Shown piece by piece: positions 29,619 to 37,177 of a stretch of 37,177 nucleotides of DNA (position 1 is the first letter of the stretch; each line of letters starts with the position of its first letter). The notes below the pieces were generated by a model. It saw only the letters and a program-made list of their open reading frames with translations, was not told where the DNA came from and ran no database searches. The stretch is taken from assembly GCA_028873525.1 (NCBI GenBank), contig JAGWIM010000009.1, positions 1-37,177 on the forward strand, given 5' to 3'. The stretch is from Pseudomonadota bacterium. Lineage in GTDB: Bacteria > Pseudomonadota > Alphaproteobacteria > Rickettsiales > SXRF01. The position numbers were made by a program, and so were the translations under genes.

Positions 29619-30755
<1,137 letters not shown>

Positions 30756-30877
30756 CATTATTCGTACAGAATATGCCCGGCAGTTGTCTGTTCGCGGATT
30801 CCGCAGATTTTTTTTGCGTCCGGCGCTAATGATTGCTAGAATTTATTAATCGGTGTCACGCCTTCAACCCAGCCGTC

Positions 30878-32494
30878 ATGCGCCCTCGCTTATCGTATAT
30901 TATCTGCACCAGCCCTCGCTCCGGCAGTTGGCTGCTGGCGGACGGGTTGGAAAGCACCGGCGTTGCCGGCAACCCGAAGGAATGGTTCAGCATTGAGGAA
31001 ACAGGAGATAATGAAGAAAATCTCGCCAAACGGTGGGGTATTTCGCTGGCGCCGCCTGCAACCTACGAGCCGTATATCGGTAAAGTGCTTGAAGAAGGGA
31101 CGACCGGCAATGGTATTTTCGGCATGAAGTGCATGTCTGGTCAGTTCGCGGTACTGCCGGAAAAACTGAAGACCATCGCCGGATATAGCAACCTTCCCGT
31201 GCCGGAGCGCATGGCGCGCGCTTTCCCGAATCTGCATTATATACGGCTTATACGCCGTGACAAGATTCGCCAGGCCATTTCGTATTATCGCGCTCGCCAA
31301 ACAGATGTCTGGCACATCGAGTCCGGATTGCCGGCTGAACACGCTCTCGAACCAACATACGATTTTGAGAAAATTGCCGGCTTGGAAAATACATTCGTAA
31401 CCCAGGATCGGAATTGGGAGGAATATCTCGGGTCATGTCAGCGACCGCTGTTTATTCTTACCTATGAAGAATTGTCGAAAGATTATGAAAATTCCATTCG
31501 GCGCGTGCTTGCATATTTGCACCTGAAAGAAGCTTCGCATCTTACGATACAGCCCCCGCGGTACAAAAAATTAGCCGATGCGTCGGTGGATAAATGGATG
31601 CCCCTGTACATGGAATATAAACGCAACCACGCAGGCATATTCATGGATAAAAGCTGGCTGGCATGGACTGAGGAGAATCTTCGGCGCGGGTGCAATCCCG
31701 AGGAAATTCTGGGCATTCTGCTTAAAAATAATTTCGCGCCGGCGGTGATACGCCAGGCGATGGGCGATCAATTCCCGGCGCACTCCGCTTTGCTGCAGGC
31801 GCACGCTCCGCGCCAGTTGCCGCCGCCCGCGCCGGCGGGCGTGGATTACAAGTCGCTCTGCGAAATACCGCTCCTGCGGCTGGGCCGGATGAAAGGCGCC
31901 GGCTATGTCGCCAATCCGAAAATGCAGCTCTTCACTATCGACCATTTCCTGGCCCCTGAGGAATGCGACCGGCTGATTGAGATCATCAACCCCAACCTTC
32001 GCCCTTCGACGGTCACGGTTTACGCCGAAGGGTTCCGCACCAGCGCTACCTGCGATCTGTGCCTCCTGCCGGATCCCTTCGTAGCCGAGATTGACAGAAA
32101 AATCGCGGCGGCGCTCGGCATCCGCCTGCCGTATTCGGAAGGCATCCAGGCGCAAAAATACGAGGCGGGCGAGGAATTCAAGCCGCATACCGATTATTTC
32201 GAGCCAGGTACGAAAGAATACGCCGATCATGCCGCGCAGAAAGGAAACCGCACCTGGACGCTCATGGTTTATCTGAATGACACGCTGAAAGGCGGCGGCA
32301 CGCGCTTTGTCAACCTCAACCGCACATTTTATCCGAAGAAGGGCATGGCCGTCGCCTGGAACAACCTATACGCCGACGGCAGGCCGAACCCGGACACCCG
32401 GCATTGGGGTATGCCGGTGGAAGAAGGCGCGAAAATCATCATCACTAAATGGTTCCGCGAAAAGGGACCGGGGCCGATGTTCGAGGGTATCTAA
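30878..32494 (+). CDS. Stf0-type sulfotransferase fused to a 2OG-Fe(II) prolyl-hydroxylase-like domain
   Basis: A 538-residue two-domain enzyme. Residues ~5-265 are a Stf0/NodH-type sulfotransferase: YIICTSPRSGSWLLADGL (PAPS 5'-phosphosulfate loop, residues 7-24), GVAGNPKEWF, GMKCMSGQF, and IRLIRRDKIRQAISYYRA (3'-phosphate site). Residues ~262-300 are a short helical linker (LRRGCNPEEILGILLKNN), then a P4H-type dioxygenase: FTIDHFLAPEECDRLI, Fe ligands H437 and D439 in FKPHTDYF, GGGTRFVNLN, H509 and the 2-oxoglutarate Lys519 in GAKIIITKW. Both active sites look intact. ATG 30878 places the sulfotransferase start correctly; TTG 30833 would add 15 residues. No signal peptide, so cytoplasmic. 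Substrate unknown. Lies between divergent mreB and convergent leuA. Confidence 0.88.
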   Translation: MRPRLSYIICTSPRSGSWLLADGLESTGVAGNPKEWFSIEETGDNEENLAKRWGISLAPPATYEPYIGKVLEEGTTGNGIFGMKCMSGQFAVLPEKLKTIAGYSNLPVPERMARAFPNLHYIRLIRRDKIRQAISYYRARQTDVWHIESGLPAEHALEPTYDFEKIAGLENTFVTQDRNWEEYLGSCQRPLFILTYEELSKDYENSIRRVLAYLHLKEASHLTIQPPRYKKLADASVDKWMPLYMEYKRNHAGIFMDKSWLAWTEENLRRGCNPEEILGILLKNNFAPAVIRQAMGDQFPAHSALLQAHAPRQLPPPAPAGVDYKSLCEIPLLRLGRMKGAGYVANPKMQLFTIDHFLAPEECDRLIEIINPNLRPSTVTVYAEGFRTSATCDLCLLPDPFVAEIDRKIAAALGIRLPYSEGIQAQKYEAGEEFKPHTDYFEPGTKEYADHAAQKGNRTWTLMVYLNDTLKGGGTRFVNLNRTFYPKKGMAVAWNNLYADGRPNPDTRHWGMPVEEGAKIIITKWFREKGPGPMFEGI

Positions 32495-32502
32495 GGGCAG
32501 GA

Positions 32503-34071
<1,569 letters not shown>

Positions 34072-36040: not shown

Positions 36041-37177
36041 TTAAAAATCCATCTCTATACTTCCAGTATCAGTACCAGCGCTGTGTTTTCTCTCCATAAC
36101 CTTGGATTCCAGAATAGGGTTATGACCGATGTTGGTTGCAAGTTCCGGGTATTTTTTGAATGCTTCAGGGTGTTCGTGTTTCAGCAATTCAACATTAATT
36201 TGAGGTTCTATCCTAATCCGGACAGTAGTTTCGTGAGTGGTTTTGCGATTTTTGGAAAGTAATGCAAACATTCCTTTCGCTGGCTTTGCGGAAGGAATTT
36301 CTTGTTCTTCCCGATAACCATCGATTCCGTCAAAAAATGCCTTTTCATTTTTTGTAAGATTCAAAGGTCCGCAGGTATTTTGCTTGCTTGGCCCTGTCAC
36401 ATTCACGAGTAATTGATTAATAGTAGCAAAAATATCATCCACTTTTTCTCTCAGTGCGGGCATTTTATTTGCGGCGATTTCCGGCTCTACTCTTTCCAGA
36501 AAACGCCGCTTATTTTCCGGCGTATCCTGAAAAGTGGACAATAGATTATTATTCTCAGGCCAAACGCCACGAGACATAGGCATATAGGCCATTATCAGCG
36601 TTCTCAGGGTGTCCAGGCGATTATCGGGTGACGAAGGATCAAGGTTTTTTAGCGGATTGCCATTCGAGATGTACCGTCCTTTAATCAAGTTATAAATGTC
36701 GATTAAATCAGTAGGCTTGTACTTATCGGTTATGCTCCTAACGATTTTTCCTGCCAGCATATCCAGAGTACGGGTTCGTTTGAATGATCCGGCGCCGCTT
36801 TCGGGTTTCGTATCTATCGGATTTATCAGCATGGGAAACGGATCTGCGTTTACCCCAAGCACTAGCCGCACTTCTAACGGTTCCTTGGGGATAAAAGGTT
36901 GTAATTCTTCGTAATCCCGACGGTTTTTCAGGCGCTCATACATTTCCTGCGGGGAAAATGTTTTTGCTACAAAAAAATCCCCGACAAAGTCACTGTCGGG
37001 TAACTTAAGGACATCTTCAGGCTTATCCACTCTTTTTATCTCTGTGCCGTTATATCCGTGGGTTTCTTCCAGGTAAGACAATCCTGCATCGGCAATAGAT
37101 TTTTTTATTATAGGCGATACCGCCTGAATTATTTTTTCAGTGAATTCGCCATTGGAAGAATGTCCGTTTTTCTCCAT
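36041..37177 (-). CDS. Low-GC gene of unknown function, possibly AbiEii-like nucleotidyltransferase part
   Basis: 378 residues from an ATG exactly at the window edge; the real start may lie beyond. Base and codon use are much AT-richer than in all neighbours, suggesting acquisition. The middle part has LEVRLVLGVNADPFPMLI, then RTRTLDMLAGKIVRSITDKYKPTDLIDIYNLIKGRY and NRLDTLRTLIMAYM. The pattern of Ala-Gly-Lys helix, then Lys-x-x-Asp-Leu-x-Asp-Ile-Tyr-Asn-Leu, resembles the second half of AbiEii/AbiGii-type nucleotidyltransferase toxins. The N-terminal GS-x(n)-DxD nucleotidyltransferase motif is not seen in the visible part, so the call is tentative. It is convergent with kbl, with 1 bp between stop codons. 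Confidence 0.6.
   Translation of the reverse strand: MEKNGHSSNGEFTEKIIQAVSPIIKKSIADAGLSYLEETHGYNGTEIKRVDKPEDVLKLPDSDFVGDFFVAKTFSPQEMYERLKNRRDYEELQPFIPKEPLEVRLVLGVNADPFPMLINPIDTKPESGAGSFKRTRTLDMLAGKIVRSITDKYKPTDLIDIYNLIKGRYISNGNPLKNLDPSSPDNRLDTLRTLIMAYMPMSRGVWPENNNLLSTFQDTPENKRRFLERVEPEIAANKMPALREKVDDIFATINQLLVNVTGPSKQNTCGPLNLTKNEKAFFDGIDGYREEQEIPSAKPAKGMFALLSKNRKTTHETTVRIRIEPQINVELLKHEHPEAFKKYPELATNIGHNPILESKVMERKHSAGTDTGSIEMDF

Follow-up and report, generated by a model that had tools for sequence, protein, structure and literature searches.

A single chain that pairs a 2OG-Fe(II) hydroxylase with a transferase is a known design: in the collagen lysyl hydroxylase LH3 and in mimivirus L230 the transferase domain modifies the newly made hydroxyl group, and L230 is reported to carry out both hydroxylation and glycosyl transfer (PMC9546862). 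In the Skp1 pathway these kinds of step fall to separate eukaryotic proteins, prolyl hydroxylation (PhyA) being followed by transfer of GlcNAc to the P4H-made hydroxyproline by Gnt1, a GT60 enzyme of protists (PMC6939170). Because the GT60 family also holds a trypanosome polypeptide GlcNAc transferase (PMC6939170), a GT60 domain by itself is no proof of hydroxyproline. Stand-alone prolyl hydroxylases of solved structure, such as 5hv0 and 5v7y from Bacillus anthracis and 3gze from Chlamydomonas, have the fold and the iron and 2OG residues described below and are without a transferase domain. The mycobacterial Stf0 (1TEX) and NodH-type sulfotransferases (PF09037, Stf0 fold) likewise stand alone. 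NodH sulfates a GlcNAc, and to our knowledge every Stf0/NodH enzyme of known function sulfates sugars.

Here we describe a gene whose product joins an Stf0 sulfotransferase to a P4H-type hydroxylase, found in a window of 37,177 nucleotides (the whole stretch of DNA analysed). Like LH3 and L230, the protein carries two intact catalytic domains on a single polypeptide, a frame error being unlikely. Unlike them, it would transfer sulfate rather than sugar and act on proline rather than lysine, and it has a different type of transferase domain; the LH3/L230 and P4H hydroxylase domains have the general 2OG fold class in common and no more. In our main reading, to which we give a probability of roughly 0.45, the protein is a bifunctional enzyme in which the P4H module hydroxylates proline and the Stf0 domain sulfates the same modified site using PAPS. 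The sequence-only reading knew of no described enzyme with the Stf0-P4H domain pair, and the literature searched bears this out: we found no account of the pair, of the sulfate version of the hydroxylase/transferase design or of “sulfated hydroxyproline”.

The fusion gene and its setting

The frame (30833/30878-32494, plus strand) runs without interruption, with an in-frame TTG (30833) upstream of the ATG at 30878 from which 538 residues are counted. Its features are as follows.

30878..32494, plus strand: Stf0-P4H fusion gene, 538 codons, ATG start (ORF scan, translation, Pfam, AlphaFold2)
30893..31609, plus strand: Stf0 sulfotransferase domain, residues 6-244 (PF09037; 1TEX by sequence and fold; 28 relatives aligned)
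30914..30937, plus strand: PRSGSWLL, residues 13-20, presumably the 5'-phosphosulfate loop, with W18 for the usual Thr (alignment columns)
30980..30982, plus strand: E35, opposite a Glu of 1TEX Stf0 in the phmmer alignment
31625..31645, plus strand: fusion junction, residues 250-256, M256 being the start site of stand-alone P4Hs (alignments, composition change)
31643..31777, plus strand: small three-helix segment that opens the hydroxylase module, residues 256-300, without a Pfam match (common to stand-alone relatives; model)
31898..32464, plus strand: P4H-type double-stranded beta-helix 2OG-Fe(II) oxygenase, residues 341-529 (PF13640, P4H structures)
32186..32194, plus strand: iron ligands H437 and D439, HxD (invariant in the 12 nearest relatives)
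32402..32404, plus strand: distal iron ligand H509 (invariant in relatives)
32432..32434, plus strand: 2OG-binding lysine K519 (invariant in relatives)

The continuous frame and the presence of both Pfam domains confirm the sequence-only reading of one 538-residue chain, and its statement that no substrate gene is adjacent also stands: the open reading frames of the window place the gene on its own, with neither an operon nor a substrate gene adjoining it. Promoter and terminator scans over 30600-32600 gave nothing above chance. The gene is flanked by leuA and mreB, which directly adjoin each other in the congener G143 and in G056, with no fusion gene at that locus; two further family members have other genes between them. 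Inserts at this leuA-mreB junction (window 30665-32503; L306-L309) vary by family member, that of G111 being a PMT_2 membrane protein.

Distribution of the fusion

About 1,200 genomes were sampled, including 175 of the host's order, 385 of its class, 16 of its family and 398 of its phylum, and no second Stf0-P4H fusion was found among them. The gene is the sole match of its kind in the host genome, and PF09037 was not found fused to a 2OG domain in the 398 genomes of the phylum. When the P4H half was searched against one genome per species (84,980 species), no Stf0 fusion appeared among the best 80 relatives listed; phage and plasmid records held the halves only as separate proteins, and no relative of the Stf0 half turned up in a scan of viral contigs. 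The fusion occurs in one genome, so the fused state is without conservation. This occurrence, the direct leuA-mreB adjacency in the congener and the differing codon composition of the two halves are most simply explained by a recent chimeric insertion.

The sulfotransferase half

Pfam assigns PF09037 to residues 6-244, well above the curated cut-off (E 1.4e-37, 130 bits vs 22) and over essentially the whole domain (profile positions 1-241 of 244). Stf0 1TEX, a trehalose complex, was matched both in a sequence search of solved structures (E 9.1e-13) and by Foldseek on the AlphaFold2 model (target TM 0.71-0.74); the score against the trehalose 2-sulfotransferase equivalog NF047724 was 104.4 bits vs a cut-off of 400. 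Seven residues (R14, G16, R126, Q132, A133, S135 and A139) are invariant in 28/28 aligned Stf0 relatives, and the PAPS-binding positions (RSGS loop, R126, S135) are kept. The loop itself reads PRSGSW in the fusion vs PRSGST in most relatives; Trp at position 18, where relatives mostly have Thr, is unusual, although not unique, because one relative (L029) has it too. The earlier description of the catalytic motifs as intact therefore holds for HxD, H509, K519 and the PAPS positions and needs amending at W18. E35 lies at what we take to be the general-base position, occupied by Glu in 14/28 relatives and by Ser in the other 14/28. The host genome encodes an APS kinase and CysD/CysH-type genes, and therefore PAPS can be made. 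From these sequence matches the Stf0 half is predicted to carry out PAPS-dependent sulfation. In the phylum sample of 398 genomes, one Stf0 domain is fused behind glycosyltransferase-like domains (L272:1417-3675).

The hydroxylase half

The P4H-type module is complete (about residues 256-535) and includes its own helical N-terminal part, which forms three helices in the AlphaFold2 model (258-269, 274-283 and 288-298) and whose residues 256-300 matched no family in a Pfam search. The catalytic domain matched 2OG-FeII_Oxy_3 (PF13640) on residues 424-527 (E 1.1e-14, 55.6 bits vs a cut-off of 27) and, in the search of solved structures, the P4Hs 5iax, 5hv0, 7zsc and 2jig/3gze (best E 5.6e-26). Foldseek agrees, with target TM values of 0.73-0.77 for 3gze, 5hv0 and 5v7y (3gze 0.77; 5hv0 E 7.2e-17), and the P4Hs that it ranks include the (Ser-Pro)5-bound algal enzyme (3gze) and an EF-Tu-modifying one. 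H437, D439, H509 and K519 are invariant in 12/12 nearest P4H relatives, so that the profile, the HxD...H iron site and the lysine all place the module among P4H-type enzymes. Hydroxylation of peptidyl proline is the activity predicted for this half.

Junction and origin of the chain

Stand-alone Stf0 proteins stop at about residue 249, and stand-alone hydroxylase relatives (G058, at 48% identity, and proteins of Alteromonas and Methylomagnum) begin at or near M256 with the same three-helix part first, so the chain unites an entire Stf0 and an entire P4H, about six residues apart and without a linker. Codon composition is not the same in the two halves (GC3 is 0.57 for Stf0 and 0.73 for P4H), the best change point falling at residue 285 and being reached by 0/2000 shuffles. 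Of the other window genes sampled, 10/11 have GC3 values of 0.63-0.85 and one, at 36044, has 0.41. The frame there (window 36041-37177, minus strand) spans 378 codons, reaches the window end, has a GC content of 0.426 and matched no Pfam family.

In-frame homology extends as far as about residue 247 and is found again from M256, so an indel would need to fall within about 25 bases; on these alignments it is unlikely that a frame error has merged two genes. The AlphaFold2 model of the fusion (mean pLDDT 85.6) has both domains folding as expected and leaves their relative placement unpredicted (pTM 0.55). It was built on an alignment (A6) of 28 Stf0 and 12 P4H rows and draws on fewer sequences from residue 177 onward, where the Stf0 rows are blank at the sampled columns; two joint Stf0 and P4H alignments (A3, A4) were set aside, one half or the other being misaligned.

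The company of the hydroxylase module

Among the matches listed, the nearest relative of residues 256-535 (56% identity) is in a Burkholderiales MAG (L041). There a 641-codon frame (L041:1132-2991) carries, by Pfam, an N-terminal PF11397 glycosyltransferase, which we take to be the family of Gnt1/GT60, followed by the P4H. This protein has the same order of parts as our fusion, transferase first and then the helical and P4H module, and links the module type to the Skp1 pathway through its GT60-family domain; unlike it, our fusion has Stf0 rather than PF11397 at its N-terminus according to Pfam. A second PF11397-2OG fusion is found in a same-order genome (L006:1447-3258), and these two bacterial GT60-P4H fusions are possibly one-chain hydroxyproline glycosylation enzymes. 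A third relative, L052, has an inserted JmjC/cupin domain.

A PF11397-like domain, either fused or in a nearby gene, occurs in 6 of the best 80 genome loci (765 kb): L041, L062, L111, L114, L115 and L118, with Pfam checks made for L041, L062, L111 and L115. Chance expectation, taken from the order survey (17/175 genomes with a match), is far below one, a rough figure that is indicative only since the phyla differ. In about 20 viral contigs, too, a P4H gene is found close to one whose product bears a PF11397-like domain, and the one such contig scanned has an O-FucT domain as well (L140:5297-8047).

The module also keeps other company. Twenty loci, chiefly from Alteromonadales and Hyphomonas relatives, have a P4H gene followed by that of a lipoprotein with a Pro/Thr tract behind its lipobox (L037:6972-11069, L101:5880-7568 and 18 similar loci), and in many of them a TonB-dependent receptor comes next; a search of the host family, made without a positive control, found no relative of this lipoprotein. 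In Methylomagnum, a 2OG oxygenase relative (L038:5932-6819) directly follows a CefA RiPP cluster that includes radical SAM maturases.

Giant chains of the host family

Among the host's own proteins is a chain of 1,656 residues (G000:C91:34916-39883; L234:4917-9884) that combines an N-terminal sulfotransferase-like domain with three PF11397 domains, one AhpC/TSA-like domain and a P4H. The N-terminal domain has a weak Pfam match, below the cut-off (E 0.009), and the top Foldseek matches of its model (pLDDT 74.9) are sulfotransferases (8w5z, E 1.8e-4). Homologues of this giant occur in 10/16 family genomes, with varying numbers of PF11397 domains and open frames that reach about 2,450 codons. Next to the host's giant gene lies a PF13469 sulfotransferase gene, and a homologue of it adjoins the giants in at least 8 of the 10 family genomes that carry them. 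In relatives of the host (L255:3534-5669, L256:929-3052), GT2, methyltransferase-like and sulfotransferase-like domains are fused in one chain.

Proposed function and alternatives

We propose that the fusion protein, probably cytoplasmic, would act on one substrate in two steps: the C-terminal P4H-type module would hydroxylate a peptidyl proline, probably in a flexible proline-rich stretch, and the N-terminal Stf0 domain would then sulfate the modified site from PAPS, either on the new hydroxyl itself or on a sugar attached to it. It would thereby be the counterpart, for sulfate, of the GT60-P4H fusion in L041. The first step is predicted from the fold and the conserved residues, and the coupling of the two is suggested by the recurring company of the hydroxylase module; we infer proline as the target, the shared substrate, the order of the steps and the activity itself. 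By analogy, sister proteins in which the same hydroxylase is fused to sugar-adding enzymes suggest a machine that makes a handle and then decorates it. The earlier idea of hydroxylation followed by modification gains from the fusion of this module to GT60 domains, or its presence beside them, and from the lineage's single chains of sulfotransferase-like, GT60 and P4H domains; its sulfate acceptor we infer. Complete domains, retained catalytic residues, the PAPS genes, the repeated GT60 association of the module, the giant chains with their PF13469 neighbours and the Pro/Thr-tract lipoproteins encoded after P4H genes speak for the coupled reading; against it stand the occurrence in one genome, the unpredicted placement of the domains (pTM 0.55), the sugar chemistry of Stf0 enzymes as we know it, the solitary gene, W18 and the lack of any mention of sulfated hydroxyproline in the papers searched.

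If both sites share a substrate, the protein would be a self-contained route from plain proline to an anionic sulfated site and would extend the collagen-type hydroxylase-transferase design to sulfation. The narrower proposal that one enzyme makes hydroxyproline and sulfates it directly, so that hydroxyproline O-sulfate would be a protein modification encoded in bacteria, we consider unlikely. The larger theme is that of a bacterial P4H module recurring with GT60, and of a bacterial family whose giant chains unite sulfotransferase-like, GT60 and P4H domains, through which bacterial hydroxyproline decoration would become directly testable.

The alternative that survives best keeps the pathway and changes the acceptor: hydroxyproline made by the P4H would receive sugars from the giant's GT60 domains, and Stf0 would sulfate the sugar, as NodH does on GlcNAc, so that the fusion would join the first and last enzymes of a cascade. 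The sugar substrates of the Stf0 family as we know it, the trehalose complex of 1TEX, the giant encoded in the same genome and the glycosyltransferase-like domains ahead of Stf0 in L272 all agree with this arrangement, but the fusion gene is unlinked to the giant gene and, as giant and fusion each carry a P4H, the fused P4H would be redundant there; we regard it as doubtful, though worth keeping in view. That the two activities are unrelated and share expression only, Stf0 working on a lipid or polysaccharide and the P4H on another protein such as EF-Tu, seems improbable: it would suit a recent one-genome chimera with no linker and halves of differing codon composition, and EF-Tu-modifying stand-alone P4Hs are structural relatives, but the repeated fusion or adjacency of the module with GT60-type glycosyltransferases argues for coupled chemistry. 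We give still less weight to a recent chimera that does little or nothing, or in which only one half is active, for which the single genome, the gene's absence from the congener's locus and W18 in the PAPS loop could be cited, because 538 codons remain open and all iron and 2OG and most PAPS-binding positions are kept. An assembly or sequencing indel fusing two overlapping, co-transcribed genes, compatible with the single sequence, with M256 at the usual stand-alone P4H start and with a frame-shifted TAA just behind M256, is highly improbable given the in-frame homology on both sides, which leaves it about 25 bases without long homopolymers.

A proline-rich candidate substrate

Returning to the proposed bifunctional enzyme, we considered one host protein as its substrate. 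An alternating Pro-(Ala/Thr) codon pattern occurs at one locus of the host genome (G000:C38:12186-12421), within a frame of 1,846 codons (G000:C38:7283-12823; L328:1284-6824) that encodes a 90-residue TP/SP/AP tract, many SP dipeptides and 61 Cys and matched no Pfam family. Relatives of its C-terminal part are present in 15/16 family genomes, and because they also occur where the fusion is absent, the protein does not track the fusion. By sequence it resembles the Ser-Pro substrate of the algal P4H; it is a candidate and a lead only.
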